Of a DNA stretch of 64,000 nt, positions 24,778 to 64,000 are shown in pieces. The DNA comes from Prevotella sp. (GTDB lineage: Bacteria; Bacteroidota; Bacteroidia; Bacteroidales; Bacteroidaceae): positions 1-64,000 of the forward strand of contig JAFTFX010000027.1 of assembly GCA_017458225.1 (NCBI GenBank), given 5' to 3'. The notes under the pieces were generated by a model that saw only the letters and a list, made by a program, of their open reading frames with translations, searched no databases and was not told the DNA's origin. The translations under genes were made by a program, and so were the position numbers. Every line of letters starts with the position of its first letter. Position 1 is the first letter of the stretch.

Positions 24778-25797
24778 ATGGAATCGAAGAAAGAACAGGC
24801 AGCCCTGCAGGCCGCCATCCGCAAACTGTGTGAAGAGAAACAGGCCATCATCCTGGCACATTATTATACTACCGGCGATATTCAGGAGGTGGCCGACTTT
24901 GTGGGCGACTCGCTGGCACTGGCACGCAAGGCGGCCGAGACCGACGCTCGCATCATCGTGATGTGCGGCGTGCACTTCATGGCCGAGACCTGCAAGCTGC
25001 TCAGCCCGGAGAAGCTGGTGCTCTGCCCCGACCCTGCAGCCGGCTGTTCGCTGGCCGACAGCTGCAAGGCTGAGGATCTGAAGAAGTTCAAGGACGAGCA
25101 TCCCGGTTATCAGGTGGTCAGCTACGTGAACACGACGGCAGCGGTGAAGGCCCTGACCGACGTGGTGGTGACCAGCGGCAATGCAAAGAAGGTGATCGAC
25201 TCGTTCCCGCAGGATGCAAAGCTCATCTTCGGGCCCGACTATAATCTGGGATCGTATATCAACAGCGTGACGGGCCGCGAGATGCTGCTGTGGCAGGGCG
25301 GCTGTCATGTGCACGAGCGCTTCTCGGTGGAGCAGATCGTGAAGATGAAGGCGCAGTATCCCGAGGCCGTGGTGATGGCCCATCTGGAGTGCAAGGGCCC
25401 CGTGCTGGCACTTGCCGACGTGAAGGGCTCGACCGCCGACATGCTGAAGTATGCGCAGCAGAGCAGCGCGCGGCAGTTCATCGTGGCTACCGAGGCCGGC
25501 ATCCTGCACGAAATGCAGCGCACGTGCCCCGACAAGGAGTTCCTGCCCGTGCCGCCAGAGGTGGCAGGAGAACCCGTGGGGCAGGTTTCTTCTTCGGTTC
25601 CGTACACTGCGGCATCGCCGCAGTCTACAGGGCAGGCCCCGTCTTCCTGCCACTGCAACGAGTGCCAGTATATGAAGATGAACACGTTGCAGAAGCTCTA
25701 TGACTGCCTAAAGAACGAGCAGCCCAGCGTTGAGGTGGAGCCGTCCATCGCTCGCGAGGCGGTGAAGCCCATCGAGCGCATGCTGGAACTATCATAA
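24778..25797 (+). CDS. nadA: Quinolinate synthase
   Basis: 339 residues from ATG 24778. It condenses iminoaspartate and dihydroxyacetone phosphate to quinolinate in NAD synthesis using a [4Fe-4S] cluster. The three conserved cysteines can be placed in the CGVHFMAETC segment, HLECKGP and the C-terminal CNECQYMKMN; AHYYTTGDIQ and DSLAL are family segments. Before the last Cys there is an in-frame insertion (SSSVPYTAASPQSTGQAPSS) that contains a family-1 hairpin (25606-25624) and is not expected in the family. A CotH-like gene follows 31 bases after the stop. Confidence 0.95.
   Translation: MESKKEQAALQAAIRKLCEEKQAIILAHYYTTGDIQEVADFVGDSLALARKAAETDARIIVMCGVHFMAETCKLLSPEKLVLCPDPAAGCSLADSCKAEDLKKFKDEHPGYQVVSYVNTTAAVKALTDVVVTSGNAKKVIDSFPQDAKLIFGPDYNLGSYINSVTGREMLLWQGGCHVHERFSVEQIVKMKAQYPEAVVMAHLECKGPVLALADVKGSTADMLKYAQQSSARQFIVATEAGILHEMQRTCPDKEFLPVPPEVAGEPVGQVSSSVPYTAASPQSTGQAPSSCHCNECQYMKMNTLQKLYDCLKNEQPSVEVEPSIAREAVKPIERMLELS
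25601..25636 (+). repeat. Hairpin repeat family 1, copy in nadA
   Basis: Stem ACTGCGGC (25606-25613) and GCCGCAGT (25617-25624), loop ATC, tail CTACAGGGCAGG. Read in the + direction; in frame. Confidence 0.92.
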
Positions 25798-25800
25798 TGA

Positions 25801-25827
25801 AGAGTTTAAGAGTTTAAGAGTTCAAGA
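25801..25827. repeat. 8-nt repeats GAGTTTAA before the CotH-like gene
   Basis: Three units GAGTTTAA, GAGTTTAA, GAGTTCAA occupy the entire gap after nadA. Confidence 0.7.
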
Positions 25828-27204: not shown

Positions 27205-27235
27205 AATCGCGACGTAAGGAGCGGACAATCAGCAG

Positions 27236-28630: not shown

Positions 28631-28631
28631 A

Positions 28632-30671: not shown

Positions 30672-30684
30672 TGTCGTTCTTTTT

Positions 30685-30826
30685 TAGTTTTTTCTAGTTT
30701 TCCTAGTTTTCCTAGTTTTCCTAGTTTTTCTAGTTTTTCTAGTTCTTCTAGTCTTTCTAGTTTTTCTAGTTCTTCTAGTCTTTCTAGTTTTTCTAGTTCT
30801 TCTAGTCTTTCTAGTGATACTAGTTT
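30685..30826. repeat. 9-nt CTAG repeat tract between porZ and rdgB
   Basis: About 15 CTAG tetranucleotides at 9-nt spacing (units like TTTCTAGTT, TTCCTAGTT). The last unit overlaps the end of rdgB and supplies its TAG stop codon (30820-30822 on the minus strand). Same unit type as in mutS and the metal ATPase gene. Confidence 0.93.
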
Positions 30827-31569
30827 TCCTTTAGAAATGCTGCCAGTTTCTGTGTAGCCCGGGCGCGGTGGCTAATCTGGTTTTTGATGTCGGCACCCAG
30901 CTCAGCGAAGGTCTTGTCATAGTCGTCGGGCTGGAAGATGGGGTCGTAGCCGAAGCCCTCTGCCCCACTCCGCTCATGGGTGATCTTGCCCTCCACAATA
31001 CCCTCGAACAGGTGCTCCTGTTTGATAGAGGTGCAGCCGCAAGGACACACGTTCTTCTTTAGTATTAACGCAATAACAGTGCGAAATCGTGCATGGCGAT
31101 TGTTATTTTCTCCTAAATCGCTGAGCAACTGGGTCATATTAGCCTCGCTGTCGTGGCTGGCAGGCGGGGTTTCTATTGTTTTGGCAGGAGTAGTTTCTAT
31201 ATTGCTGGCGAGAGTGGTTTCTGTCGGTTTGGCGAGAGTGGGTTCTGTAGGTTTGGCAGGAGTGGTTTCTGTAGGCTGCGACATTGTCGCAGCGTACCTG
31301 ACAGCGGCATAGCGGGCGCTATACACCCCAGGGGCACCGTTGAGGGCATCGACCTCCAGGCCGGTGTCGTCGGCAAAGCAGCTCAGGTGGTAGTTCTCCC
31401 ACACATAGCGGGCTTTCTGCAGGGCGTTCTCCTGCAGGGTGCTTCCTGTTTCAGGAATATCAACATCGCAGCCGATGTCTTTGAGCGACAGCACTTCGAA
31501 TGTTGGGCCCAGAATGGCGCGAATCTCCTCCAGCTTGTGGGCGTTGTTGGTGGCAAAAACAATTTTCAT
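30820..31569 (-). CDS. rdgB: XTP/dITP pyrophosphatase (HAM1) with a repeat insertion
   Basis: 249 residues, removes inosine and xanthosine triphosphates from the nucleotide pool. Motifs: [46 protein letters not shown]. Between PGVYSARYA and HDSEANM there is an insertion of about 45 residues (TETTPAKP repeats) encoded by five 24-nt units and a family-1 hairpin; the natural family has only a few residues there. The stop codon comes from a CTAG unit. It overlaps yitT by four bases (ATGA). Confidence 0.95.
31157..31276 (-). repeat. 24-nt tandem repeats in rdgB
   Basis: Five units of 24 bases (8 codons) such as TTGGCAGGAGTGGTTTCTGT followed by four more bases. They sit directly before the family-1 hairpin at 31275-31293 on the + strand. 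Confidence 0.92.
31271..31306 (+). repeat. Hairpin repeat family 1, copy in rdgB
   Basis: Stem GCTGCGAC (31275-31282), loop ATT, stem GTCGCAGC (31286-31293), tail GTACCTGACAGCGG. The gene reads the opposite strand, in frame. Confidence 0.92.
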
Positions 31570-32480: not shown

Positions 32481-35471
32481 TTATTTACATACAATATTCA
32501 CCATACGCTTAGGGACGATGATAACCTTCATGATCTGCATGCCCTCGGTGTAGCGGGCAGTGCGCTCGTCGCTGCGGACGGCGGCCTCGATGGTGGCATT
32601 ATCGGCATCGGCCGGGAACTGCACCTCGAAACGGGCTTTGCCGTTGAAGGCCACACCCATCTTCACCTGGCTCTCCACGAGGTACTGCTCGTTCCACTCA
32701 GGCCACTGGGCATCGCAGACGCTCTCGGGCATGCCTTCCATCACGGCAGGAGCGTTCAAGCGCAGCATCTCCCACAACTCTTCGGCGATATGGGGAGCGA
32801 AGGGAGCAATGAGGATGACGAGCTGGCGCATCACCTCGGGGTTCTTGCACTTCAGCTGCGAGAGCTCGCCCACAGCAATCATGAAGGCCGAGATGGAGGT
32901 GTTGTAGGAGAACTGCTCAATGTCTTGCGACACCTTCTTGATGAGCTTGTGCAGCGCCTTCAGCTCCTCAGGGGTTGCCGTTGGGTATACTGCGGCATTG
33001 CCGCAGTCTGCCTGACCATGGGAGCCGTCTACCTGATTGCAGAGGTTCCAGAATTTCTTCAGGAAGCGGTGGCTGCCTTCGATATTATTGGTGTCCCAGG
33101 GCTTCGACTGCTCTACGGGACCAAGGAACATCTCAAAAAGTCGCAGCGTGTCGGCACCGTAGCGCTCTACGATCATATCGGGATTGACCACGTTGTACAT
33201 CGACTTCGACATTTTCTCGACGGCCCAGCCGCAGATGTACTTGCCGTCCTCCAGAATGAACTTCGCATCTTGATATTCCGGACGCCAGGCACGGAAGGCT
33301 TCAATGTCGAGCACATCGGCCTGAACCATGTTTACATCAACGTGTATGGGCGTGGTGTTGTACTGCTCCTTCAGGTTGAGGCTGACGAACGTGCCTTTGT
33401 CGGGACCTTCGTCCTCTATGCGATAAACAAAATTGGAACGACCCTGGATCATGCCCTGATTGATAAGCTTGCGGAAGGGCTCGTCCTCGCAGGTGTAGCC
33501 CGAGTCGTAGAGGAACTTATCCCAGAAGCGCGAATAGATCAGGTGGCCGGTGGCATGCTCGCTGCCGCCCACGTAGAGGTCTACCGAGCGCCAGTATTCG
33601 TTCTTCTCCTTATCGGTGAGTGCCTGGTCGTTGTGGGGGTCCATATAGCGCAGATAGTAGGCTGAAGAGCCTGCGAAGCCCGGCATGGTGTTCAGCTCAA
33701 GGGGGAACACGGTCTTGTTGTCGATGTTGGCAACATCGACTACCGAACTGGTCTTGGTGTCCCAGGCCCAGCACTTGGCGTGGCCGAGTGGCGGCTGTCC
33801 GGTGGCCGTGGGCTTGTACTCCTTCACCTCGGGCAGTTCCAGGGGCAGGCACTCCTTGGGAATCATGTAGGGCATGTCGTCCTTGTAGTATACGGGGAAC
33901 GGCTCACCCCAGTAGCGCTGACGGCTGAAGATGGCATCGCGCAGGCGGTAGTTCACCTTCACGCGGCCGATGCCGGTCTCAGTGACGTACTTTTTCGTGG
34001 CGGCGATAGCCTCCTTGACGGTAAGGCCGTTGAGGGAGAACGACTCTCCCCCTTGCCCCTCCCTGTGAGGGAGGGGTTGTGTGGTGGGTCTTCTCGGACT
34101 GTTCATCACGATGCCTTCCTTGGCATCGAAGCTCTGCTCGCTGACATCGGCACCCTCGATGAGGGGGATGATGGGCAGACCGAAATGCTTGGCGAAGGCA
34201 TAGTCGCGGCTGTCGTGGGCAGGCACGGCCATGATGGCACCGGTGCCGTAGCCGGCCAGCACATATTCGCTGATCCAGATGGGGATTTTCTCGCCTGTGA
34301 AGGGGTTGATGGCGTAAGAGCCGGAGAACACACCCGTCACGCTGTGGTCCATCTGGCGCTCGCGCTCGGTGCGCTTCTTCACGTAGGCCAGGTATTCATC
34401 GACGGCGGCCTGCTGCTCGGGCGTGGTGAGCTGTCCGACGAGCTCGCTCTCAGGAGCCAGCACCATGAAGGTGACACCGAAGATGGTGTCGGCACGGGTG
34501 GTGAAGATGGTGAAGCTATCGACTCCTGTTCCGTTCACGGAGGCGGTTTCGACTTCTGTTCCGTTCACGGAGGCATTGCCTCCGTCTACAGGACGGGCCA
34601 CCTTGAACACCATCTCGGTGCCCTCGGAGCGACCTATCCAGTTGCGCTGGGCCTCCTTGATGCTGTCGCTCCAGTCGATGGTGTCGAGGCCATCGAGCAG
34701 GCGCTGGGCGTAGGCCGACACGCGGAGGCACCACTGGCGCATCTTCTTCTGCTCCACGGGATAGCCGCCGCGCTCAGAAACACCGTTTACCACCTCGTCG
34801 TTGGCCAGCACGGTGCCCAGAGCCGGACACCAGTTCACCATCGTCTCGGCCAGGTAGGCGATGCGGTAGTTCATGAGCACCTCCTGCTTCTTCTTCTCAG
34901 AGAACGAAGCCCAGTCGCTGGCGGTGAAGTGCAGTTCCTCAGTGCCGTAGGCCCCGCAGTTCTCAGTGCCCATCAGTTCGAAGTGCTCAATGAGCTTGAT
35001 GATGGGCTGTGCCTTGTGGCTGCTGGTGCTGAAATAAGAGCGGAACATGCGCTGGAAGGCCCACTGTGTCCATTTATAGTAGCCGGGATCGCAGGTGCGC
35101 ACCTCGCGGCTCCAGTCAAAAGAGAAGCCTATCTTGTCCAACTGCTCGCGATAGCGGTTGATGTTCTGCTCGGTGGTGATGGCGGGGTGCTGACCCGTCT
35201 GTATGGCATACTGCTCGGCAGGCAGTCCGTAGGCATCGTAGCCCATGGGGTTCAGCACGTTGAAGCCCTTCAGCCGCTTGTAGCGAGCGTAGATGTCGCT
35301 GGCTATATATCCCAACGGGTGGCCTACATGCAGGCCTGCACCACTGGGGTAAGGGAACATATTAAGTACGTAGAATTTCTTCTTCTTGTAGTCTTCAACA
35401 ACGCGATAGGTGCCGTTTTCCACCCATCGGCGCTGCCATTTCTTCTCGATTTCTCTGAAATTGTATTCCAT
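32481..35471 (-). CDS. leuS: Leucyl-tRNA synthetase with three repeat insertions
   Basis: 996 residues, longer than I expect for bacterial LeuRS (usually near 860-960). Class I motifs HVGH ([10 protein letters not shown], about residue 48) and KMSKS (EKMSKSMYN, about 750) are intact, as is the editing domain ([15 protein letters not shown]). Repeat insertions: two 30-nt units plus hairpin in the region before TIFTTR (34519-34597), a C/G palindrome before LNGLTVKEA (34041-34090), and a hairpin near the anticodon domain (32979-33021). All are in frame in loops. Last gene upstream of yitT and rdgB in the operon. Confidence 0.96.
32979..33021 (+). repeat. Hairpin repeat family 1, first copy in leuS
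   Basis: Lead CCGTTGGGTAT, stem ACTGCGGC (32989-32996), loop ATT, stem GCCGCAGT (33000-33007), tail CTGCCTGACCATGG. In frame on the minus strand, protein GNAAVYPTA. Confidence 0.92.
34041..34090 (+). repeat. C/G-rich palindrome (family 2) in leuS
   Basis: 9-bp stem CCCCTCCCT (34056-34064) with AGGGAGGGG (34068-34076), loop GTG, with G-rich or C-rich tails on both sides. It encodes [15 protein letters not shown] on the minus strand. Confidence 0.88.
34519..34578 (+). repeat. 30-nt tandem repeat in leuS
   Basis: Two copies of a 30-nt unit with TTCCGTTCACGGAGGC, encoding ASVNGTGV and similar on the minus strand. The second copy runs into the hairpin at 34567. Confidence 0.88.
34560..34597 (+). 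repeat. Hairpin repeat family 1, second copy in leuS
   Basis: Stem ACGGAGGC (34567-34574), loop ATT, stem GCCTCCGT (34578-34585), tail CTACAGGACGGG. Confidence 0.92.
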
Positions 35472-35914: not shown

Positions 35915-35919
35915 AGTTG

Positions 35920-42289: not shown

Positions 42290-43402
42290 CTACGATTTGT
42301 TCTGTTCAGTCAATACCCGGTTGATCTTTTCAAGAATCTGTTCGGGGCTTATCTGGTTCAGGCAGGCATAGTCGCCGCGCTGGCAGGTCTTGTTGCCGAA
42401 GATGCTGCACGGGCGGCAGTCCAGGTCTACCTGCACGGCATTCTGCAGCTGCTGCCCCCACCCCATGAAGCCAGCCTTGGGATGCGTGGCTCCCCATACG
42501 GAGACAACGGGCGTGGCGGTGAGCGAAGCCATGTGCATATTGGCGGAGTCCATGGACACCATCACGTCGAGATGGCTCATCAGGATGAGTTCCTGATACA
42601 TGCTGTCCAGGTGTTTCCCCACGAAGGTGCATTGCGGCATGCGGGCCGTCCACTCGTCGAAGGTCTGGTCTTCCTGCGGTCCGCGGCCAAAGAGGAATAT
42701 GCGACAGTGGGGGTTCTGGCTGATGAGCTGCTCAATGACCTGCTGCATCTTCTCCTTCGGATAGATTTTTCCCTTGTGGGCGGCAAAGGGGGCGATGCCT
42801 ATCCACTGCTCGCCGGCGTTCTTGGTCTCCAGCCCTTTGGGCAGCAGGTTCAGGTTGCCGGTGGGTTTGGGGGTTACTGCGGCGGTGCCGCAGTCTGCCG
42901 GGCTGGATTGGAAGATGCTTCTGAAGCACAGGTTTTCAGGCGCTATGGGGTAGCCCAGCCGGCGGAACACGTCGAGGTAGTTGTCGAACGATGTGGGCAG
43001 GGGCTGCACAAGGCGCTTGTCGCTGCTGTGGGTCAGCTTGCGGCGCAGGTTGCGATGCTTGTCTATATGCTCCACGCGGAGGAGGCCCAGGTTGAAGCGC
43101 AGGCGCAGATACTCGCTGCGCAGCACGTTGTGCAGGTCGGCCACGGCTGTGAACTGCTTGGCTTTCAGTCGGCGGTAGAGGGCGTTGAGGCCCTGCACGC
43201 CGTGGTATTCGCCCTTGATGTCGGCACCCATGAAGTTCACGTTGGGTGCCAGGTCTTCAAAGAACGTGTGCGACACGGGTCGGCTCAGCACGGTGATGCG
43301 CAGGTTGGGGTACTGTCGTGCCAGTGCCCAAATGATGGGCACCATCATGGCTACGTCGCCAAGTGCCGAGAAACGAATGACAAGCAGGTGTTCGTGCTTC
43401 AC
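42290..43402 (-). CDS. Glycosyltransferase family 9 (heptosyltransferase-like)
   Basis: 370 residues. GT9 fold: LLVIRFSALGDVAMMVPIIWAL, then ADLHNVLRSEY, IGIAPFAAHKGKIYPKEKM, FLFGRGPQED, LDVMVSMDSANMHMASLTATPVVSVWG. Family members add ADP-heptose or similar sugar to the lipopolysaccharide core at the inner membrane. In frame after about residue 160 lies a family-1 hairpin (SPADCGTAAVTPKPTG), in the loop between the two Rossmann halves. It is followed upstream on the same strand by a DUF4254 gene, a frequent pair in Bacteroidales. Confidence 0.92.
   Translation of the reverse strand: MKHEHLLVIRFSALGDVAMMVPIIWALARQYPNLRITVLSRPVSHTFFEDLAPNVNFMGADIKGEYHGVQGLNALYRRLKAKQFTAVADLHNVLRSEYLRLRFNLGLLRVEHIDKHRNLRRKLTHSSDKRLVQPLPTSFDNYLDVFRRLGYPIAPENLCFRSIFQSSPADCGTAAVTPKPTGNLNLLPKGLETKNAGEQWIGIAPFAAHKGKIYPKEKMQQVIEQLISQNPHCRIFLFGRGPQEDQTFDEWTARMPQCTFVGKHLDSMYQELILMSHLDVMVSMDSANMHMASLTATPVVSVWGATHPKAGFMGWGQQLQNAVQVDLDCRPCSIFGNKTCQRGDYACLNQISPEQILEKINRVLTEQNKS
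42863..42906 (+). repeat. Hairpin repeat family 1, copy in the GT9 gene
   Basis: Stem ACTGCGGC (42876-42883), loop GGT, stem GCCGCAGT (42887-42894), tail CTGCCGGGCTGG. In frame. Confidence 0.9.
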
Positions 43403-44148: not shown

Positions 44149-46893
44149 ATGGCGAAGAAAGACGGGCAGCTGACCCCCATGATGCAGCAGTTTTTCGACT
44201 TGAAAAAGAAGCACCCCGATGCGGTGCTGCTGTTTCGCTGTGGCGACTTCTACGAGACCTACTGCGAAGATGCGGTGATTGCCTCGCGCATACTGGGCAT
44301 CACGCTCACCAAGCGCAACAACGGCTACAGCAAGGGCGACGAGATGGCGGGCTTTCCCCACCATGCGCTCGACACTTATCTGCCCAAGCTGATTCGTGCC
44401 GGCAAGCGCGTGGCCATCTGCGACCAGCTGGAAGACCCGAAGCTGACGAAGAAGCTGGTGAAGCGCGGCATCACCGAGCTGGTGACACCCGGCGTGGCAC
44501 TCAGCGACAACGTGCTGAACTACAAGGAGAACAACTTCCTGGCATCGGTGCACTTCGGGCGCACGGCCTATGGCGTGAGCTTCCTGGACATCTCGACAGG
44601 CGAGTTCCTGGTGGGCGAGGGCACAGCCGACTATGTGGAGAAGCTGTTGGGCAACTTCCAACCGAAAGAGGTGCTCTACGAACGGCAGCGCAAGCACGAC
44701 TTCGAGCGATATTTCGGCAGTCGCTATTGTGTGTTCGAGCTCGACGACTGGGTGTACACCGAGGAGACGGCCCAGCAGCGACTGTTGCGCCACTTCGGGG
44801 TGAAGTCGCTGAAAGGCTTCGGCGTGGCCCACATGCACAGCGGCATCACCGCTGCCGGGGCCATCTTGCAATATCTGGAACTGACGCAGCACACGCAGAT
44901 AGGCCATATCACCACGCTGTCGCGCATAGAAGAAGATAAATATGTGCGCCTGGACAAGTTCACCATTCGTTCGCTGGAAATCATCCAGCCCATGCAGGAG
45001 GACGGCCGGTCGCTGCTCGATGTCATCGACCGCACCGTGTCGCCCATGGGCTCGCGCCTGTTGCGCCGCTGGCTGGTGTTCCCCCTGAAAGACCAGAAGC
45101 CCATTGAGGAGCGACTCGACGTGGTGGACTGCTTCTTTCGCCAGCCCGACTTCCGGCAGACCATCGACGAACAGCTGCGGCGGGTGGGCGACTTGGAGCG
45201 CATCGTCTCGAAAGTGGCCGTGGGCCGCGTGTCGCCTCGCGAGGTGGTGCAGTTGCGCGTGGCCCTGCAGGCCGTAGAGGCCATCAAGCAGGCCTGCCAG
45301 CAGCTGGGTGCTGGCAGTGCTAGTCTTTCTAGCCTTTCTAGCCCTACTAGTCCTACTAGTCTTTCTAGCCCTACTAGCCCTACTAGTCTTTCTAGCCCTG
45401 GCTATGCAGCCCTGCACCAGATAGGGCAGCGCCTGGAGCTCTGCGAAGCCATCCGCGACCGCATAGGCCGCGAGGTGAAGCCCGATCCGCCACAGCTGGT
45501 GCAGAAGGGTGGGGTGATGGCCGACGGCGTGAGCCCCGAGCTCGACGAGCTGCGCCATATTGCCTATTCGGGCAAGGACTATCTGCTGCAGATTCAGGAG
45601 CGCGAAGCCCAGCTGACGGGCATACAGTCGTTGAAGATAGGCTATAACAACGTGTTCGGCTACTATCTGGAGGTGCGCAACACCTATAAGGACAAGGTGC
45701 CGCAGGAATGGGTGCGCAAGCAGACGCTGGCTCAGGCCGAGCGCTACATCACCCAGGAGCTGAAGGAATATGAAGAGAAAATCTTAGGGGCCGAAGACCG
45801 CATCCTGTCGCTGGAGGCGCAGCTCTTTGCCGCACTGGTGGCCGATATTCAGCAGTATATTCCGCAGATTCAGGCCGATGCCATGCTGCTGGCACACCTC
45901 GATGTGCTGCTGGGCTTTGCCAAGACGGCCGAGGAACATCACTATGTGCGGCCGGTGATCGACTCGTCGGAGGTGATCGACATCCGGCAGGGCCGCCACC
46001 CCGTCATTGAGACCGAACTGCCCGTGGGTGAGCAATACATTCCCAACGATATACTGCTGGACAACGAACGACAGCAAATCATGATCATTACAGGCCCGAA
46101 CATGGCCGGTAAATCGGCGCTGTTGCGCCAAACGGCGTTGATCGTGCTGCTGTCCCAAGTGGGCTGTTTTGTGCCGGCAGAGGCCGCGAAAATCGGTCTG
46201 GTGGACAAAATTTTTACGCGCGTGGGCGCTTCCGATAATATTTCACTGGGCGAATCGACCTTCATGGTAGAGATGACCGAGGCTTCGAACATTCTGAACA
46301 ACGTGAGCCCCAAGAGCCTGGTGCTCTTCGACGAGCTGGGCCGCGGCACGTCTACCTACGACGGTATTTCGATTGCGTGGGCCATCGTGGAATATCTGCA
46401 CGAGCAGCCCAAGGCACGGGCGCGCACGCTCTTTGCCACCCACTATCATGAGCTGAACGAGATGGAGAAGAACTTTTCGCGCATCAAGAACTACAACGTA
46501 TCGGTGAAGGAGGTCGACGGCAAGGTGATCTTCCTGCGCAAGCTGGAACGGGGTGGCTCGGAGCACTCGTTCGGTATTCACGTGGCAGAGATTTCGGGCA
46601 TGCCGCGCAGCATTGTGAAGCGTGCCAACGTGATTCTGAAGCAGCTGGAGGCCGAGAATAGTGGGGTGGGGCAGGCCGGTCGTCCCGACAGTTCGGCACC
46701 CGAGGCTCGCACGGCGGCCACATCGGGCATCGCCGGCAGCAGAGAGGGCATGCAGCTGTCGTTCTTCCAACTGGACGACCCTGTGCTCTGCCAGATACGC
46801 GACGAGATCTTAGGCCTCGACGTGAACAACCTGACACCGCTGGAAGCCCTGAACAAACTGGCCAGCATCAAGAAAATAGTTTCCGGGAAATAG
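44149..46893 (+). CDS. mutS: DNA mismatch repair protein MutS with a CTAG-repeat insertion
   Basis: 914 residues from ATG 44149. Mismatch-binding domain with the F-x-E motif ([10 protein letters not shown], about 26), core and clamp domains, and ATPase: Walker A GPNMAGKS (about 648), signature [10 protein letters not shown], Walker [20 protein letters not shown]. In the core domain after about residue 386, where homologues have a short turn, a Ser/Pro/Thr tract ([14 protein letters not shown]) is encoded by nine CTAG units. It is a serine-rich loop and seems tolerated. A second, Ala/Gly-rich linker before QLSFFQ is usual for the family. Convergent with the kinase gene over 6 bases. Confidence 0.97.
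45319..45397. repeat. 9-nt CTAG repeat tract inside mutS
   Basis: Nine CTAG tetranucleotides at 9-nt spacing (units CTACTAGTC and TTTCTAGCC), in frame, coding for (Ser/Pro)-(Thr/Ser)-Ser triplets. Confidence 0.93.
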
Positions 46894-52214: not shown

Positions 52215-53375
52215 TTATACATTATCAGGAGCGTTAATGCATGATTTGCTTATCTCAGCGGCGATGCCGTTGAGTTGTAGGCAGCGCTGGCGCATGTTTT
52301 CTATCTTTTCATTCTGCCAGGGGTAGGGACTAATCATGAGCAGACGGCCTTCGGCACAGGCTGCGAGGTAGTGAGGTTGTGGCTTAAAGAAAGGAGGAAA
52401 GCCTTTTAATAGCAGGACGATGAGGGGGAGTCGGGCCTCCAAGATGGCTGTGGCAATCTGTTTCTCGCCAGGACTGATGCAGGGAGAGACGATGACAGCA
52501 CCCTGTTGGGCTGCATTCAGGAAGTGCTGTTTGCGTTGTTCTATTTCGTTGGGATAGAGATGACGCGAGCATTGTACCTGCAGTTTGACGGGGTGGTCGA
52601 AAAGGGCAGTGTTGCCCATGGCCTCCATATCCTGGCCGGCTATGGTCAGCTTGCCCAAAGGCTTGAAGTATTGAGGGTGTGCCTGTTTTAAAAGGAGGCG
52701 GCGGGGATTGTCATCCAGGTAGTTGAGCATGCGCTGAAGTTGGCCTTCCTGTAGTAGGATGCGGTCGTTGTAGCCTTGTTCCCAGAGGACGCCTAGGGCG
52801 TGATGGGGGTGAGGGGTGGCTGACTGAGGCAGAGGGGATTGAGGCGGAGGGGACTGAGGCAGAGGGGACTGAGGCAGAGGGGACTGAGGCGATGCCTCAG
52901 TGTACCGGACAAGGGCCGGTTGGGTAGATGGCGACACCGTCGCCGTGGCTGTCGCTTTCGCCGTGATGACTCCCAGTTCTCGTGCCGCCTTTCTGGTACC
53001 ACTCTTGAAGCCATTGATGATAGTGCCCAGATGGTGTGGCATACTCTCTTTGACAAAGAGTACGCCATGGATATGGTCGGGCATGATACAAAGCTTGATA
53101 ACTGATACCTCCGGGTAGTGAGCAGGGATGTCCAGCCAGCAGGCTTTCACCCGTTCTCCTAATGGTGAAAGGACAATGTGTGGCTTATCGTTGCCAGTTG
53201 TGGCCAAAGGGTCTCCTTTTAATGTGCCGAATAGGGGCAACCGACCCTCAGTGGCTATTGTTATCATGTAGATGCCTCGCTGGGTATAGTCGTGCTCATC
53301 GCAACGGCGCTTCATCGAGGGTTTCTTTTCTTGCTTTTTCGACCACTCAATGCGCCTTCTCTTTCTTTCGTCCAT
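52215..53375 (-). CDS. REP-associated tyrosine transposase (RAYT) with C-terminal Rossmann-like domain
   Basis: 386 residues. HUH single-strand nuclease of the Y1 type: HUH motif PDHIHG with H101 and H103, and catalytic Tyr in GYNDRI (Y202). The family start (YTQRGIYMITIATEGRLPLFG) is present. Between HUH and Tyr a long insertion (about 150-190, SPQSPLPQSPL) is coded by four 15-nt repeats and two family-1 hairpins. After about 245 a second domain (GNTALFDHPVKLQVQC, GAVIVSPCISPGEKQIATAI) looks like a DprA/LOG Rossmann fold, weakly. No IS ends are seen; it is a single-gene element. It probably acts on the window's hairpin repeats, but that is inference. Confidence 0.88.
   Translation of the reverse strand: MDERKRRRIEWSKKQEKKPSMKRRCDEHDYTQRGIYMITIATEGRLPLFGTLKGDPLATTGNDKPHIVLSPLGERVKACWLDIPAHYPEVSVIKLCIMPDHIHGVLFVKESMPHHLGTIINGFKSGTRKAARELGVITAKATATATVSPSTQPALVRYTEASPQSPLPQSPLPQSPPPQSPLPQSATPHPHHALGVLWEQGYNDRILLQEGQLQRMLNYLDDNPRRLLLKQAHPQYFKPLGKLTIAGQDMEAMGNTALFDHPVKLQVQCSRHLYPNEIEQRKQHFLNAAQQGAVIVSPCISPGEKQIATAILEARLPLIVLLLKGFPPFFKPQPHYLAACAEGRLLMISPYPWQNEKIENMRQRCLQLNGIAAEISKSCINAPDNV
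52824..52883 (-). repeat. 15-nt tandem repeats in the RAYT gene
   Basis: Four 15-nt units (CTGAGGCAGAGGGGA type), then the left arm of the hairpin with the same sequence CTGAGGC; they code for (S)PLPQ pentapeptides. Confidence 0.92.
52883..52914 (+). repeat. Hairpin repeat family 1, copy 1 in the RAYT gene
   Basis: Stem ACTGAGGC (52883-52890), loop GAT, stem GCCTCAGT (52894-52901), tail GTACCGGACAAGG. Confidence 0.9.
52916..52946 (+). repeat. Hairpin repeat family 1, copy 2 in the RAYT gene
   Basis: Lead CCGGTTGGGTAG, stem GGCGAC (52930-52935), loop ACC, stem GTCGCC (52939-52944); two more pairs with one G-T. The tail is not conserved. Confidence 0.75.
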
Positions 53376-53441: not shown

Positions 53442-53480
53442 TTGAGTTGACGGCGACATTGTCGCCGTTTACCGGACGGG
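53442..53480 (+). repeat. Hairpin repeat family 1, intergenic copy between polA and RAYT
   Basis: Lead GTTGAGTTG, stem ACGGCGAC (53450-53457), loop ATT, stem GTCGCCGT (53461-53468), tail TTACCGGACGGG. It lies 67 bases upstream of the RAYT start codon and directly at the 3' end of polA. Confidence 0.92.
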
Positions 53481-53485
53481 AGGGA

Positions 53486-56305
53486 TTAGTGGGCCTCCAG
53501 CCAGTTTTGGCCGAAGCCGCTGTCGGCAACGAGGGGGACGGCCATCTGGAAGGCTCCCTGCATCTCTTCGAGCACGATGCGTTCCACGGCTTCTTTCTCC
53601 TCTGGATAGACGGAGAAGTTGAGTTCGTCGTGCACCTGCAGGATCATCTTGCTCTTGATGTTCTCCTTCTGGAAACGCTCGAAGATGCGGATCATAGCCA
53701 CCTTGATGATGTCGGCAGCGGTGCCCTGGATGGGGGCGTTGATGGCATTGCGCTCGGCAAAACCGCGCACAGTGGCGTTCTGCGAGTTGATGTCGGGCAG
53801 GTAGCGACGGCGACCGAAGAGGGTGGGGACGTAGCCCTGCTGACGGGCTTCCTGCTTGGCGCGCTCCATGTAGTCCTTCACCTTTGGGAAGGTCTCGAAG
53901 AAACCGTCGATGAGCAGCTTGGCCTCGTCGCGGCTGATGTCGAGGCGCTCAGCCAGTCCGAAGACGGTGATGCCGTAGATGATGCCGAAGTTGGCGCGTT
54001 TCGACTTGGTACGCTCGTCGCGGCTAATCTCACCGATGGGCTTTTTATAGATATTCGAGGCGGTGGCTGCATGCAGGTCTTTGCCCTCGCGGAACACCTC
54101 GATCATGGCTTCGTCTTGCGACAGATGGGCCATCACGCGCAGCTCAATCTGACTATAGTCGGCCGAGAAGAACAGGCAGCCGGGCTCGGGCACGAAGGCC
54201 TTGCGGATCTCCTTGCCGTCTTCGCCGCGCACGGGGATGTTCTGTAGGTTAGGGTCTGAGGATGACAGGCGACCCGTGGCCGTGACGCACTGATTAAAAG
54301 AGGTGTGGATATGGCCGGTGCGGGGGTTGATGAGCGTGGGCAGGTTGTCAACATAGGTGCTGAGCAGCTTCTTCAGTCCGCGGAAGTCCAGGATCTTGCC
54401 TACGATGGGGTGCTTGGCATGCAGCTGCTGCAGCACCTCTTCCGAGGTGACGTACTGTCCTGTCTTGGTCTTCTTCGGCTTCTCCACAATCTTCATCTCG
54501 GCGAAGAGCACATCGCCCACCTGTCGCGGTGAAGATATATTGAACGAGTGGCCGGCCAGTTCGTAGATCTCGTGCTCTATCTGGTTCATGCGCTCGGTGA
54601 GCTCGAGTGAGGTCTGGCGCAGCGAGTCGGTGTCGAGCACCACACCAGTCATCTCCATCTCGGCCAGCACGGGCATCAATGGCATCTCAATATCATAGAA
54701 CAGGCGTTCGCAGTCGTGCTTCTTCAGTTCGGGCTCCAGCTTGTTCTTCAGCTGCAGGGTGATATCGGCATCCTCGCAGGCATACTCATAGACTTGGGTG
54801 GGGGAGAGGTCGCGCATGGACCGCTGGCCCTTGCCGCGCGGACCGATGAGCTCGTCGATGTGCACCGTCTGGTAGTTCAGATACACCTCGGCCATGTAGT
54901 CCATGTTGTGGCGCAACTCGGGCTGGATGAGATAATGGGCAATCATAGTGTCCCACATGGGGCCAGCAAGGTGAATGTTATAATTTCTTAATACCTCTAA
55001 ATCATACTTAATATTCTGTCCGATCTTCAAAATGTTGGGGTCTTCGTAGAGAGGTTTAAAGATATTAACAATTCTTTGAGCTTCTTCACGATTGGCAGGA
55101 ATGGGCACATAAAAAGCTTCATGTTCTTCCACCGCGAAGCTCAAACCCACCAATTCGGCATCGATGGCCGAGGTTGAAGTGGTCTCTGTGTCCAGACTGA
55201 GAATTTGTTTTGTCTTGAAAATGGAAATAATTTTTCTGATTTCTTCCTCATTTTCAATAAGTTGGTATTTATGATCGGTCGTTTTAAGGCTCTCAAAACT
55301 TGAATTTTTTGGAGCTTCCTCACTGGCGGCTGGGAAAAAGTCAAAGAGAGAAAGTTGGTCGTTAGCAGGTTTTTGTTTCTTTTCAGACTTTTTAAGAACT
55401 CGTTCTTTCAGGCTCTTGAACTCCAGTTCGTCGAAGAGCTTGCCCAGTTTTTCCTCATCGGGTTGTTGCAACTTCAGACTATCGAGCGGCACTTCGATGG
55501 GAACATCGGTTTTGATGGTGGCCAGGAAGTAGCTCATGCGGATGTCGGCCTCGTGCTCCATCACTTTTTTCTGCAGTGCACCCTTCAGCTCGTCGGTTCT
55601 CTTCAGCAGGTCGTCGACACTGCCGAACTCGTTGATGAGTTTCACGGCCGTTTTCTCACCCACACCAGGACAGCCGGGGAAGTTGTCGGCCGAGTCGCCC
55701 ATCAGGGCCAGCAGGTCGATGACTTGGGCGGTTTTTGCAATGCCGTACTTCTCGCACACCTCCCGTGGTCCCATCACCTCGTAGCCGCCACCGTGGCGGG
55801 GGCGGTAGATTTTCACCTGCTCGCTAACCAGCTGGCCATAGTCCTTGTCGGGGGTGAGCATGAAGACTTCGGTGCCGGCTGTTGGGCGAACAGCGGCATT
55901 GCCGCTGTCTACTGAACTGGTGCTGCTGTCTACTGAACCGAGGCGACAGGCCAGGGTGCCGATGACATCGTCGGCCTCGAAGCCGTCGGCTTGAAGAACG
56001 GGGATGTTCCAGGCCTGCAGCAGTTCCTTGATGATAGGTACCGCTTTGCGGATATCTTCGGGTGTGGCCTCGCGCTGTGCCTTGTATTCGGGGAAAGCAT
56101 CGCTGCGGAACGTCGGTCCGTGGGGGTCGAAGGCTACGCCCAGATGGGTGGGCTGTTCTTTCTCCAGCACCTCTTGCAGCGTGTTGACAAAGCCGATGAT
56201 GGCCGAGGTGTTCAGTCCCTTTGAGTTGATGCGTGGGTTCTTGATGAACGCATAATAAGCGCGGTAGATGAGTGCGTAGGCATCCAGTAAAAATACTTTA
56301 TTCAT
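53486..56305 (-). CDS. polA: DNA polymerase I
   Basis: 939 residues. 5'-nuclease domain (about 1-300, LLDAYALIYRAYYAF, GDSADNFPGCPGVGEKTA), 3'-5' exonuclease domain with an apparently kept first acidic pair (LSLDTETT, about 365), and polymerase domain (SADYSQIELRVMAHLSQDEAM, RTKSKRANFGIIYG, VHDELNFSV). It works in Okazaki processing and repair. In the 5'-nuclease domain after about residue 122 lies the insertion SVDSSTSSVDSGNAAVRPTAGTE from a family-1 hairpin (55881-55943). It is convergent to nothing; the RAYT lies behind it. Confidence 0.97.
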   Translation of the reverse strand: MNKVFLLDAYALIYRAYYAFIKNPRINSKGLNTSAIIGFVNTLQEVLEKEQPTHLGVAFDPHGPTFRSDAFPEYKAQREATPEDIRKAVPIIKELLQAWNIPVLQADGFEADDVIGTLACRLGSVDSSTSSVDSGNAAVRPTAGTEVFMLTPDKDYGQLVSEQVKIYRPRHGGGYEVMGPREVCEKYGIAKTAQVIDLLALMGDSADNFPGCPGVGEKTAVKLINEFGSVDDLLKRTDELKGALQKKVMEHEADIRMSYFLATIKTDVPIEVPLDSLKLQQPDEEKLGKLFDELEFKSLKERVLKKSEKKQKPANDQLSLFDFFPAASEEAPKNSSFESLKTTDHKYQLIENEEEIRKIISIFKTKQILSLDTETTSTSAIDAELVGLSFAVEEHEAFYVPIPANREEAQRIVNIFKPLYEDPNILKIGQNIKYDLEVLRNYNIHLAGPMWDTMIAHYLIQPELRHNMDYMAEVYLNYQTVHIDELIGPRGKGQRSMRDLSPTQVYEYACEDADITLQLKNKLEPELKKHDCERLFYDIEMPLMPVLAEMEMTGVVLDTDSLRQTSLELTERMNQIEHEIYELAGHSFNISSPRQVGDVLFAEMKIVEKPKKTKTGQYVTSEEVLQQLHAKHPIVGKILDFRGLKKLLSTYVDNLPTLINPRTGHIHTSFNQCVTATGRLSSSDPNLQNIPVRGEDGKEIRKAFVPEPGCLFFSADYSQIELRVMAHLSQDEAMIEVFREGKDLHAATASNIYKKPIGEISRDERTKSKRANFGIIYGITVFGLAERLDISRDEAKLLIDGFFETFPKVKDYMERAKQEARQQGYVPTLFGRRRYLPDINSQNATVRGFAERNAINAPIQGTAADIIKVAMIRIFERFQKENIKSKMILQVHDELNFSVYPEEKEAVERIVLEEMQGAFQMAVPLVADSGFGQNWLEAH
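55881..55943 (+). repeat. Hairpin repeat family 1, copy in polA with a duplicated tail
   Basis: Lead GTTGGGCGA, stem ACAGCGGC (55890-55897), loop ATT, stem GCCGCTGT (55901-55908), tail CTACTGAACTGG; a second tail GTCTACTGAACCGAGG at 55928-55943. Confidence 0.92.
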
Positions 56306-58844: not shown

Positions 58845-58846
58845 AT

Positions 58847-59098: not shown

Positions 59099-59159
59099 CT
59101 TATTGTTTTGTATTCTCAATCTCAACAGCACCTCCTTAGGAGGGACTTTGAGAGGCTTT

Positions 59160-59612: not shown

Positions 59613-59642
59613 GCGTGCAAAATTACGGTTTTTTATTCAGTT

Positions 59643-61472: not shown

Positions 61473-61485
61473 GTTCAAGTTTTTA

Positions 61486-61501
61486 AGTTTCACGTGAAAC
61501 A
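61486..61501. promoter_or_regulatory. parS: parS site, 15 of 16 match, upstream of uvrC
   Basis: AGTTTCACGTGAAACA; the ParB-binding consensus is TGTTTCACGTGAAACA, with one mismatch at the first base. Lies 14 bases before the uvrC ATG. Confidence 0.88.
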
Positions 61502-61531
61502 CTCCTCTCCGTATTCACCTCTCCATTTAAA

Positions 61532-61565
61532 ATCCCATCCCCTGGGAGGGGTTGGAGGTGGGTCT
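61532..61565 (+). repeat. C/G-rich palindrome (family 2), shortened copy at the apt stop
   Basis: CCCCT (61539-61543) with AGGGG (61547-61551), then TTGGAGGTGGGTCT. The end touches the apt stop codon (TAA, 61567-61565). Confidence 0.7.
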
Positions 61566-62092
61566 TAAATTGTCATCAGTGTGGTCAGGTCAATGCCTTC
61601 AAAAAGGTCGCGACCGTGCAGACCCTCGTCGGTAATTTCGATGATGAAGTTCATGTAGACCTTCTTCGGGTGGAAGTGTTGCACCAGTTTATAGGCAGCC
61701 TTGGCTGTACCGCCCGTTGCCAACAGGTCGTCATGAATCAGAACTACGTCGTTTTCATCGATTGAGTCGAGGTGCATCTCGATGGTGTCTACACCGTATT
61801 CTTTCGAGAATTGCTCCTTGATGACTGTAGAGGGCAGCTTGCCCGGCTTGCGAGCCATGACCAGTCCGCAACCCAACTTACCAGCGAGGGCAGAACCCAT
61901 GATGAATCCGCGGCTTTCTATACCCACTATCTTTGTGATGCCTTTGTCCTTGTAGAGCTCATACATCTCGTTGAGCATAATCTGAAAGCACTCGGCATTT
62001 TTGTAGAGGGTTGTCACGTCGCGGAAGTTAATTCCTTTTTTCGGAAAATCTGGTATGCAGCGCAGATTGTCCATTAATACTTTGTTGTTCAT
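61565..62092 (-). CDS. apt: Adenine phosphoribosyltransferase
   Basis: 175 residues from ATG 62092 (MNNKVLMDNLRCIPDFPKKG). It salvages adenine with PRPP to AMP. The PRPP motif VVLIHDDLLATGGTA (about 118-132) and the flexible-loop and hood segments ARKPGKLPSTVIKEQF are typical. Between two parS sites; same gene order as in Bacteroidales (mnmG-apt-uvrC). Confidence 0.96.
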   Translation of the reverse strand: MNNKVLMDNLRCIPDFPKKGINFRDVTTLYKNAECFQIMLNEMYELYKDKGITKIVGIESRGFIMGSALAGKLGCGLVMARKPGKLPSTVIKEQFSKEYGVDTIEMHLDSIDENDVVLIHDDLLATGGTAKAAYKLVQHFHPKKVYMNFIIEITDEGLHGRDLFEGIDLTTLMTI

Positions 62093-62126
62093 TTTCAGGT
62101 TGTTATAGGTTTTGTTTAATATTGTT

Positions 62127-62142
62127 TGTTTCACGTGAAACA
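62127..62142. promoter_or_regulatory. parS: parS site, perfect 16-bp match, between apt and mnmG
   Basis: TGTTTCACGTGAAACA, the full palindromic consensus bound by ParB (Spo0J). 35 bases before the apt ATG and 5 bases beyond the mnmG stop. Confidence 0.95.
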
Positions 62143-62147
62143 GAAAA

Positions 62148-64000
62148 TCACCGCCCCATGAGCACCAGTAGCACGTTGATGTCGCTGGGCGAAACGCCCG
62201 GTATGCGACTGGCCTGTGCGAGGGTTGTCGGCTGGATGGCCGTTAGCTTTTGGCGTGCTTCGGTGGAAAGGCTCTGCAGGTTGTTGTACTGGAACGATGC
62301 AGGGATGCGGATGTTCTCCAGTCGGTGCATCTTTTCTGCCACCAGTCGTTCGCGCTCGATGTATCCTTTATATTTCATGCGGATTTCGGCAGCCTCCACG
62401 ATTTCCTCCTTGCGGTCTTTCAGGTGTTCGATTCGCTCTTTTAGTTCAGGAATAATCTCCTGAAGATTCTGGAAATTCAGTTGCGGACGCGCGATGAGTT
62501 CGTCCAGTTTTACGCCAAACTGGAGTGGGGTAGTGCCCAGCGCTTCCAGAGCGGCATTGATTTCTTTCGGTTTGATGGGGAACGATTTGCAGAAGTTCTC
62601 GATTTCTTCGATGGCTGTTTTCTTCTTCAGCCAGTAGTCGTAGCGTTCGCGAGTGGCCAATCCCAGCTGGTAGCTGCGCTCGGTCAGTCGGGCATCGGCA
62701 TCGTCCTGTCGCAGCAGGATGCGATATTCGGCACGCGAGGTGAACATACGGTAGGGCTCGTCGACACCTTTCGTCACTAGATCGTCGATGAGAACGCCAA
62801 TATAAGCCTCGTCGCGAGCCAAGGTGAAAGCCTTTGGGGTGGCGACACTGTCGCCACATACCGAACTGGCGGCTCCTGCTTTCAGGGCCGCGTTGATGCC
62901 GGCGATGATGCCTTGGCCTGCAGCTTCCTCATAGCCTGTGGTGCCGTTCACCTGTCCGGCCATGAACAGACCGTCAACCACTTTCGATTCCAGCGTGTGG
63001 GTGAGCTGTGTGGGGTCGAAAAAATCGTACTCGATGGCATAGCCAGGGCGGTACACTTTTGCTTGTTCCAGGCCCGGAATTTTCCTCAGGGCAGCTATCT
63101 GCACGTCCATCGGCAGCGATGAAGAAAAACCGTTCAGGTACATCTCGTTGGTGTCGCTGCCCTCTGGTTCCAGGAACAGCAGGTGCTGGTCGCGGTCGGG
63201 GAAGGTGACAAGCTTCGTCTCGATGCTGGGGCAGTAGCGCGGTCCTATCGACTGTATCTGTCCGTTGTAGAGGGGCGAGTCGGCCAGGCCCGAGCGGAGG
63301 GTTTCGTGAACGGCAGGGTTGGTGTAGCACTCCCAGCAGGGGAGCTGGGGGAGGGGGGGCTGAGTGTTCAGATAGGAGAAGCGGTAGGGGCGCTGGTCGC
63401 CCTCCTGTTTCTTCAGTTGGGCGAAGTCGATGCTGCGCTTGTCGAGGCGCACGGGCGTACCTGTTTTCATGCGGGCGGTGCGGATGCCATGACGGGCGAT
63501 GCTCTCCGTCAGACCGCTCACGGCAGGTTCGGCAATGCGTCCGCCGGGCACCATCTTGCGGCCGATGTGCATCAAGCCGTTGAGGAATGTGCCAGCCGTG
63601 ATGACCACACAACGGGCACGCAGTTCGCAACCCCAGATGGTGCGAACGCCAGTGACGCGCTGGCGAGGAGCGGAGGGTTCTGAGTGATCTGAATACTCTG
63701 AATAGTCTGAGTGATCTGAATAGTCTGAGGGTTCTGAATAGTCTGAGGGTTCTGTCAACAGTTCCTCTGCTTGGTCTTGCCAGATGTCAAGATTGTCGGT
63801 TTCATCGAGATGGCGGCGCCATTCCCAGATAAATTTTCCTCGGTCGCACTGGGCGCGAGGGCTCCACACGGCCGGTCCTTTGCCCACGTTCAGCATGCGG
63901 AACTGTATGGCCGTGGCATCGGTCACCAGTCCCATCTGTCCGCCCAGGGCATCAATCTCGCGGACTATCTGGCCTTTGGCAATGCCGCCAACGGCCGGGT
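62148..64000 (-). CDS. mnmG: tRNA uridine-5-carboxymethylaminomethyl modification enzyme, 5' end outside
   Basis: 617 residues visible; the frame is open to 64000, so the FAD-binding N-terminus is lost at the right edge (PAVGGIAKGQIVREIDALGGQ seen at the edge). Motifs: RTARMKTGTPVRLD, YCPSIETKLVTF, EYDFFDP, GQVNGTTGYEEAAGQG, TSRAEYRILLRQDDAD. It acts with MnmE on the wobble uridine. Two in-frame insertions: a Ser-Asp-Tyr tract after AEELLTE (9-nt repeat, 63674-63754) and GAASSVCGDSVATPK from a family-1 hairpin (62834-62870). mnmG is often close to the origin. Confidence 0.96.
   Translation of the reverse strand, partial: PAVGGIAKGQIVREIDALGGQMGLVTDATAIQFRMLNVGKGPAVWSPRAQCDRGKFIWEWRRHLDETDNLDIWQDQAEELLTEPSDYSEPSDYSDHSDYSEYSDHSEPSAPRQRVTGVRTIWGCELRARCVVITAGTFLNGLMHIGRKMVPGGRIAEPAVSGLTESIARHGIRTARMKTGTPVRLDKRSIDFAQLKKQEGDQRPYRFSYLNTQPPLPQLPCWECYTNPAVHETLRSGLADSPLYNGQIQSIGPRYCPSIETKLVTFPDRDQHLLFLEPEGSDTNEMYLNGFSSSLPMDVQIAALRKIPGLEQAKVYRPGYAIEYDFFDPTQLTHTLESKVVDGLFMAGQVNGTTGYEEAAGQGIIAGINAALKAGAASSVCGDSVATPKAFTLARDEAYIGVLIDDLVTKGVDEPYRMFTSRAEYRILLRQDDADARLTERSYQLGLATRERYDYWLKKKTAIEEIENFCKSFPIKPKEINAALEALGTTPLQFGVKLDELIARPQLNFQNLQEIIPELKERIEHLKDRKEEIVEAAEIRMKYKGYIERERLVAEKMHRLENIRIPASFQYNNLQSLSTEARQKLTAIQPTTLAQASRIPGVSPSDINVLLVLMGR
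62834..62870 (+). repeat. Hairpin repeat family 1, copy in mnmG
   Basis: Stem GTGGCGAC (62839-62846), loop ACT, stem GTCGCCAC (62850-62857), tail ATACCGAACTGG. In frame on the minus strand. Confidence 0.92.
63674..63754. repeat. 9-nt TCTGAnTnn repeat tract inside mnmG
   Basis: About nine 9-nt units (TCTGAGTGA, TCTGAATAC, TCTGAGGGT), in frame, coding for Ser-(Asp/Glu)-(Tyr/His/Pro) triplets where homologues have a short loop. Same unit as in rnc. Confidence 0.92.

Follow-up and report, generated by a model that had tools for sequence, protein, structure and literature searches.

In-frame REP hairpins within essential genes of rumen Prevotella

Introduction

How REP elements move and why they persist is an open question, and the locus described here bears on it: how does a family of short hairpins come to lie in frame within core genes, next to the gene of a putative mobilising enzyme? 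In-gene REPs, and REPs within RAYT genes, have already been published. The window analysed here is a stretch of 64,000 nucleotides from a Prevotella MAG, in which a first-pass annotation had noticed ten hairpins with covarying stems and had proposed REP-like elements moved as single-stranded DNA. We followed the family through the genome of the window (G000, incomplete) and through its relatives.

Results

Ten hairpins and their reading frames

All ten hairpins are present, nine as a perfect 8-bp stem with a 3-nt loop and the tenth (52928-52946) pairing at 7 of 8 stem positions. The single pattern GTNCNGTANRCNGNGRCANYGYCNCNGY, allowing at most two mismatches, gave 15 matches, all of them at these ten sites, each of which matches on one strand or on both, and the proposed ten-copy family therefore stands; chance hairpins are ruled out by a mean of 0.00 matches in 100 shuffles. 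Each unit is laid out as a foot near GTCCGGTAN, 8 bp, a 3-nt loop, 8 bp and a foot-like tail, with a foot on both sides. In the orientation of R2, a model whose 13 training copies all lie outside the window, the foot reads GTRG in three of the ten window copies (leuS2, RAYT2 and polA) and GTAC, GTAT, GTAA or GCAG in the rest. The 13 training copies, which had been picked by R1, show a strong wider foot, GTYCNGTA. G000 holds 21 sites of at least 40 bits with R2, a short hairpin in many copies per genome, and Rfam at gathering thresholds found one tRNA only in the window, the hairpins matching no known RNA family. The ten hairpins are a REP family with a double-sided foot in a Prevotella MAG. 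The copies and the RAYT gene are as follows, with strands as called by R2.

25593..25630, plus: REP in nadA (24697-25797, plus); frame a, peptide PYTAASPQSTGQ; R2 45.5 bits on plus against 33.8 on minus
31269..31306, minus: REP in rdgB (30820-31569, minus); frame a, 11-residue peptide, followed by a tandem array; R2 42.3 bits
32976..33013, plus: REP leuS1 in leuS (32481-35471, minus); frame b, DCGNAAV; R2 40.5 bits on plus against 30.1 on minus
34561..34598, minus: REP leuS2 in leuS; frame b, VDGGNASV; R2 40.7 bits; half-REP duplication, period 30
42870..42907, minus: REP in a GT9 glycosyltransferase gene (42290-43402, minus, Pfam PF01075); frame b, DCGTAAV; R2 32.5 bits
52215-53375, minus: RAYT gene; HuH motif PDHIHG, Y motif YLDDNPRR, a linker with a REP pair, C-terminal domain of ~143 aa
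52877..52914, minus: REP RAYT1 in the HuH-Y linker; frame a, VRYTEASPQS; R2 40.6 bits
52915..52952, plus: REP RAYT2 in the HuH-Y linker, inverted to RAYT1; R2 25.0 bits on plus, R1 26.1 on plus against 15.6 on minus
53444..53481, minus: REP between polA and the RAYT gene, the sole intergenic copy of the ten; R2 49.0 bits
55884..55921, minus: REP in polA (53486-56305, minus); frame b, VDSGNAAV; R2 41.4 bits; half-REP duplication, period 21
62833..62870, minus: REP in mnmG (62148-63935, minus); frame b, SVCGDSVAT; R2 40.8 bits

A 15-bp half-REP array at 52822-52890 adjoins RAYT1.

Nine of the ten lie in genes and are read through in frame (nadA, rdgB, leuS twice, GT9, RAYT twice, polA and mnmG), and the translations bear out the earlier statement to this effect; REP hairpins sit in frame within essential genes of rumen Prevotella. 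Their genic share, 49 of 97 sites among the matches listed (27 of G000, 45 of G072 and 25 of G064, seven weaker R1 or R2 sites of G000 being left out), is about that of random positions (679 of 1200) under a strict test, used for this comparison only, that scores nadA, rdgB and both RAYT copies as non-genic though they are genic and that treats random positions alike. Depending on the gene, translation runs through the same hairpin in either of two frames. Frame c is taken by none of the 49 in-gene copies at the listed sites, though it is open at 32 (probability 3e-8 if open frames were equal), and the proposal that lengths compatible with the reading frame were kept by selection gains support from in-gene copies that are in frame and in two frames only. 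Frame c often contains stops in G064.

The ten copies had also been said to point the same way while their host genes use both strands. R2, with which a further model, R3, agrees, calls seven on minus and three on plus, namely nadA, leuS1 (32976) and RAYT2 (52915); orientation is weak evidence here because the unit carries a foot on both sides. As to the hosts, nadA alone is on plus and all other host genes are on minus. Since the copies are not co-oriented, orientation gives no evidence here for single-strand movement, and the step from the one to the other fails under R2 and R3. What is known of the enzyme family nevertheless makes single-strand processing of these REPs likely.

The RAYT gene and its link with REPs

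The gene at 52215-53375 encodes a RAYT (TnpAREP) by virtue of a Y1 HuH core in its sequence and of REPs inside and beside it, its scores of 16.2 bits against Pfam PF01797 (cut-off 23) and 36.6 bits in two stretches against NCBIfam REP_Tyr_transpos (cut-off 80) both lying under the cut-offs. The C-terminal domain (~143 aa) is conserved and has no match among Pfam or PDB sequences; for a DprA-like domain, one candidate, hhalign gave 102 colinear columns at a probability of 1.6%, with a score not above what four-fifths of unrelated alignments permit (leuS 21.2, nadA 21.0 versus 21.8).

Of 80 polA loci in relatives, 14 have a RAYT homologue, which in 12 cases lies at most 1 kb downstream of polA. 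R1 matches occur in the gap or immediately upstream of the RAYT gene in 11 of these 14, and 9 of the 14 carry an inverted REP pair in the linker. By genome, REP matches are present in 16 of 24 with a RAYT against 1 of 16 without (Fisher 2e-4), and in 15 of 24 against 1 of 16 (p 7e-4) once REPs inside RAYT genes are excluded, in a table counted by hand that includes weak RAYT matches for G002, G005 and G021; 8 of the 24 RAYT-bearing genomes lack any R3 match. REP sites also cluster around the RAYT: in G000, 6 of the 24 other sites fall within 25 kb of it (p 6e-6, a value biased by the choice of the window for its matches) and 8 of 42 listed within 25 kb in G072 (p 2e-7, a cluster made up partly of the same old sites in rdgB, leuS and mnmG). 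The RAYT in the window, the REPs inside and beside its gene and this co-occurrence support the earlier designation as REP-like elements, and this RAYT is likely to drive the spread of the window's REPs.

Stem covariation and genome-typical stems

In an alignment of 19 copies of G000 (A4; nine from the window and ten from outside), all 152 stem cells are paired and 30 are changed on both sides, the paired percentage being inflated by a choice of copies partly for good stems. None of 500 shuffles reached its paired percentage, double-change count or covariation score, while two further measures, the count of pairs and the count of pair types, do not stand out from the shuffles; there are no G-U cells. 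The two arms do change together, as had been claimed from the window alone, and the genome-wide check that was then proposed finds the expected covariation among copies but no single orientation.

Consensus arms differ among three genomes (ACTGCGAC, GCTGCGGC and ACTGCGCT). Across 14 sites shared between them, a copy is nearer to the consensus of its own genome than to its orthologue in 25 of 28 comparisons, with 2 ties, and label swaps did as well in a fraction of 0.0002 of 20,000. The 14 pairs are those at matching positions; cross-pairs within the RAYT locus, gene-only matches, all but one of the SusD-like paralogue pairs, the pairs C30/C5 and C45/C27, and the polA-RAYT gap pair, whose G072 match is one base out of register, were left out. 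In G064, 19 of the 25 listed copies have the inner arm CGCT. In these three genomes, then, in-gene copies tend to follow the dominant stem type of the genome, with both arms changed; counter-examples are found in other genomes and in gltD, which keeps the stem GCTGCGAT in G064, G066 and G069 though the G064 type is ACTGCGCT.

The mnmG site gives a series across relatives. In 15 genomes (the window and 14 of 66 rows, admitted on five outer pairs and six of eight overall) the hairpin is kept with 98.3% of positions paired, a percentage biased by that rule on pairing, and with 21 double-sided changes, which none of 500 shuffles equalled. The rows comprise 24 of the 17-residue length and 28 of other lengths, some of the latter with weaker hairpins (L041, L049, L069, L071); L037 and L133 are the same contig. 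Peptides at mnmG change while the hairpin persists, and CGDSVAT is common to the window, L018, L020, L023 and L028. The stem matches the other copies of its own genome in G000, G064, G068 and, roughly, G070, and is unlike the few other copies fetched in G065, G066, G069 and G071.

Empty and occupied sites in relatives

Among the relatives shown, the peptide of the nadA copy is absent from all 44, that of the rdgB copy from all 37, that of the GT9 copy from all 31 and those of both leuS copies from the 44 listed of 52; the 13 relatives aligned at polA all lack the peptide of the polA copy, their loop being shorter or different. Such absence is not universal, because the rdgB site is also occupied by a REP in G072 and the leuS1 loop in G064. 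At several places within genes, two or more species have a REP at the same site but with differing stems, and some sites, chiefly mnmG, are old and common to several Prevotella species; not every copy is therefore a recent arrival. Farther afield, the same peptide in unrelated Bacteroidetes had been named as a sign of an ancestral protein loop. Under strict filters, R1 matched nothing in 24 genomes drawn from other families of the same order, so that this refutation did not occur in its strong form.

Discussion

We interpret the family as the REPs of a Prevotella RAYT system, moved by the RAYT, tolerated in loops and renewed in their stems, which is the best explanation overall and one that we hold to be probable. 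The RAYT, of HuH/Y1 type and encoded beside polA, would most likely recognise foot plus hairpin, and, by analogy with its family, would cut and join single-stranded REP DNA, probably at replication forks. Frame-preserving inserts, in two of three frames, would survive in loops that we take to be tolerant; several loops are indeed still occupied, or have been reoccupied, across species; and RAYT-processed REP strands may replace older copies, giving genome-typical stems.

How the stems are renewed admits more than one account. In-gene REPs may be rewritten in place, RAYT-processed ssDNA replacing the hairpins at occupied loops, in which case a switch of the genome's REP type would alter many core proteins at once; we advance this tentatively, at somewhat below an even chance. 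If true, a selfish repeat would edit orthologous proteins in concert, while the RAYT's own gene carries the repeat in its linker, and unrelated core genes would have in this system a common source of coordinated protein change.

Repeated fresh insertion, in which a few hot or tolerant loops are struck anew by each lineage's REPs without any rewriting, is likewise possible and falls short of probable. The same loops do accept other inserts (leuS near residue 296 in L141 and L153; polA in L002, L003 and L051), and the window's leuS carries a CCCTCCC palindrome (34057-34075) in the place where G064 and G072 carry REPs. However, in the AIRS gene, the Peripla_BP_2 gene and LacZ, two species share both the residue and the frame of the insert, as they very nearly do in rdgB, and this would need a strict target; the CGDSVAT shared at mnmG also points to descent. 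In-gene REPs at sites shared between species give each locus an alignable history, be it empty, occupied, decayed or changed, and fresh insertion and in-place replacement can therefore be tested against each other by strain comparison.

We regard as unlikely a correction of quasi-palindromes, in which template switching copies one arm from the other as a local, transposase-free replication error. It accounts for double-sided changes at a single site such as mnmG, for the zero G-U cells in the 19 own copies and for mnmG stems unlike the other copies in the same genome; half-REP tandem arrays, found at 11 of the 97 listed REP sites against 81 of 3000 random places, show replication slippage at these hairpins. 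Yet it leaves unexplained both the stem type shared across unrelated sites, such as the CGCT arm of G064, and the spread of copies. Ancestral protein loops, hairpin-coded by coincidence and retained for their peptide, are very improbable: the mnmG, rdgB and gltD sites are common to several species, but two reading frames are in use from gene to gene, one of the ten copies lies outside any gene, short loops are common among relatives, and the hairpin outlasts changes in the peptide.

Comparison with known systems

According to the accessible text of Di Nocera 2013 (PMC3733652), most GTAG-tagged REPs associated with RAYTs are intergenic, in-gene REPs occur in several species, including in DNA polymerase I and tRNA synthetases, and two Xanthomonas have different REPs at roughly one position in recB. 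The window REPs resemble these in having a foot, of the GTRG form in three of ten copies, next to a short hairpin, and in RAYT association and in-gene copies; by contrast, the placement of the family in the three Prevotella genomes is not different from random positions, and that text describes no concerted change at shared in-gene sites for GTAG REPs. The words Prevotella and Bacteroides are absent from its main text. Rickettsia palindromic elements likewise lie in frame in many protein genes, a likeness in manner only: the same source, as far as it was accessible, describes RPE-1 as longer, and groups RPE-4 and RPE-6 with CGTC repeats, which have no dedicated transposase.

REPINs (Bertels and Rainey 2011, PMC3116915) are inverted REP pairs, described, in the portion available, in extragenic space. 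The REPs of the RAYT linker form such an inverted pair, the only close one of the ten, whereas the other eight window copies are single.

A further comparison is with TnpAREP subclass 2.4 (Quentin 2018, PMC6006769), for which the available text reports the motifs NH[IFV]H, WQ and YIxNNP, where the window RAYT has DHIH, WE and YLDDNP, and no conserved C-terminal extension, where the window RAYT has one of ~143 aa. According to the same text, however, subclass 2.4 is found in Bacteroidetes, has 'double foot' REPs and carries in-frame REPs between HuH and Y in the RAYT gene; the window RAYT, too, holds an in-frame REP pair between HuH and Y, and its REPs are double-footed.

A hairpin family with covarying stems

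All ten hairpins claimed by the first-pass annotation are present in the window, and a single degenerate pattern gives 15 matches with both strands counted, all at these ten places, and none in 100 shuffles. Nine of them carry a stem of eight paired bases and a 3-base loop; in the tenth (52928-52946) seven of eight bases pair. The repeat unit (REP) spans about 38 bases, with a foot near GTCCGGTAN, then the stem, then a foot-like tail. By Pfam the host genes are nadA on the plus strand and rdgB, leuS, GT9, polA and mnmG on the minus strand; the transposase-like gene beside polA (RAYT) is also a host.

Three search models were used: R1, trained on nine window copies; R2, on 13 copies from outside the window; and R3, on 37 copies, the majority from relatives' RAYT loci. 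R2 finds 21 sites of at least 40 bits in the source genome (G000; 2.24 Mb, 46 contigs, completeness 74.7%), eight of them inside the window, and since it was trained outside, the window copies are independently shown to be members of the G000 family. The single orientation earlier proposed for all ten is not borne out, as R2 and R3 place the nadA, first leuS (leuS1) and second RAYT copies on the plus strand and the other seven on the minus strand. The proposed covariation holds: in 19 G000 copies all 152 of 152 stem cells are paired, with 30 changed on both sides, and none of 500 shuffles reaches either value. Across species, 37 copies have 97.0% of cells paired and 57 with both sides changed. 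Because copies were selected in part for good stems, the double changes are stronger evidence than the paired share.

Among 66 mnmG orthologue rows, 14 satisfy the hairpin rule, 24 are short in length and 28 are otherwise. The 14 rows and the window copy have 98.3% of cells paired and 21 changed on both sides (0/500 shuffles attain these values); pairing thus persists through changes on both sides, so that the hairpin in this core gene is retained as its sequence changes.

Stem types at shared sites

The nearest relatives of the G000 polA are uncultured Prevotellaceae (up to 83%), many ruminant-derived. The window inserts are missing in most relatives examined. In the relatives G064 or G072, a REP with a different stem occupies the same place in rdgB, leuS1, mnmG, LacZ, the AIRS gene and the Peripla_BP_2 gene, and SufS and ileS are additional cases. 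Consensus arms are ACTGCGAC in G000, GCTGCGGC in G072 and ACTGCGCT in G064. In 28 comparisons at 14 shared sites, the own-genome consensus is nearer than the orthologue in 25, with two ties (mean differences 1.25 versus 3.14); a fraction of 0.0002 of 20,000 label swaps matches this likeness, a test that is mildly circular in that tested copies contribute to the consensus.

We read these data as RAYT probably spreading REPs, with copies at shared in-gene sites tending to carry their own genome's stem type. The mnmG stem resembles other own-genome copies in G000, G064, G068 and, roughly, G070. Counting against this reading, it is unlike the few own-genome copies compared in G065, G066, G069 and G071, and gltD keeps one stem unchanged across three genomes.

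No REP movement was observed. Fresh insertion at hot loops is possible, and the same leuS and polA loops also receive other inserts. Template switching inside the hairpin is likewise possible. Tandem repeats of half a REP overlap 11 of 97 listed sites, compared with 81 of 3000 places drawn at random (p 1e-4), as expected if hairpins provoke slippage; at the eight sites called genic their period is always a multiple of three.

Other repeats were seen, some in the same loops. The palindrome CCCTCCCTNNNAGGGAGGG has three window copies and none in shuffles; its leuS copy is in frame and sits in a loop that carries REPs in G064 and G072. A third insert type, coding EAPSGAVGG, lies in the loops of the other leuS and polA inserts in other Prevotella (L141, leuS; L002 and L051, polA). 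Several 9-bp-unit arrays fall within open frames, and the mnmG array encodes (EPSDYS)-like repeats in a loop that is occupied by a REP in G064 and G072.

Other repeats in the window
16629-16647, CCCTCCCTNNNAGGGAGGG palindrome
16768-16786, CCCTCCCTNNNAGGGAGGG palindrome
34057-34075, CCCTCCCTNNNAGGGAGGG palindrome, in leuS
7479-7541, 9-bp-unit tandem array
17382-17513, 9-bp-unit tandem array
30680-30827, 9-bp-unit tandem array
45320-45399, 9-bp-unit tandem array
63673-63754, 9-bp-unit tandem array

Host genes and reading frames

Hosts beyond the window include a TonB receptor, GldL, an AIR-synthase-like protein, a pseudouridine synthase, a periplasmic binding protein, a sugar transporter, aminotransferases, glycosidases and a class I tRNA synthetase; the weaker sites may be chance matches. 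A strict frame test scores 49 of 97 listed REPs from three genomes as genic, versus 679 of 1200 random positions (Fisher p 0.29), and these 97 sites give no sign that genes are avoided. Of the three peptide frames, a (e.g. YTATLSQST) is used by 14 and b (e.g. VNCANSAV) by 35 of the 49, sites common by descent entering more than once; frame c is used by none though open in 32 (probability 3e-8, assuming open frames equal), which suggests selection acting on the peptide.

A REP-like peptide, KAATVSQH, occupies an identical place in a Sugar_tr transporter of G000 and G018 (L098, L120); G018 has no RAYT match. Several Prevotella carry a REP-like hairpin in the apparent signal peptide (e.g. LVCCGIAAA) of lipoproteins read as SusD-like from their sequence; those of G064 are partly of its own stem type.

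SusD-like loci with a REP-like hairpin
L123, L135, L273, L283, L286 (near the match)
L356, L357 (G064)
L332 (G072)

Co-occurrence with RAYT

Across 40 genomes of the genus, RAYT matches in 24 and R3 in 17; R3 REPs occur in 16 of 24 genomes with RAYT versus one of 16 without (Fisher 2e-4). The eight genomes with RAYT and no R3 match count against our reading. R1 gives matches in 18 of 36 genus members and in 0 of 24 genomes from other families. With the three RAYT-locus copies excluded, 6 of 24 G000 sites (p 6e-6) and 8 of 42 among the G072 matches listed (p 2e-7) lie within 25 kb of RAYT, a clustering that owes part to common descent of the same sites. Elsewhere, G009 has a row of five REP matches spaced 66 or 132 bases (C23:52507-52874).

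The RAYT gene and known systems

In RAYT (52215-53375, minus strand), a variable linker separates the HuH motif from the Y motif and contains two mutually inverted REPs. NCBIfam REP_Tyr_transpos matches it in two stretches, scoring under the family cut-off. G000 has two further paralogues, 38-46% identical in parts.

RAYT paralogues of G000
C43:71459-72463, L270
C19:31183-32244, L001

A homologue occurs at 14 of 80 relatives' polA loci, in 12 within 1 kb downstream of polA, and 11 of the 14 have an R1 match in the polA-RAYT interval. Nine of these linkers carry an inverted REP pair, L056 two copies of ambiguous orientation, L003 and L029 one each, and L028 and L057 none. The C-terminal domain (52218-52646; motifs VSPCISPGE and PLIVLLLKGF) is conserved across aligned homologues and has no match among Pfam families or PDB sequences.

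REPs inside genes and inside RAYT genes are already published; no publication on Prevotella REPs was among the literature matches listed, whose coverage mostly excludes subscription papers and preprints. The REP arrangement in the linker fits TnpAREP subclass 2.4 as described by Quentin et al. 2018 (PMC6006769). However, the HuH, W and Y motifs listed there differ from those of the window RAYT, and the subclass is said there to be without a C-terminal domain. Since its motifs differ and it has such a domain, about 143 residues long, we keep the window RAYT out of subclass 2.4 as there described.
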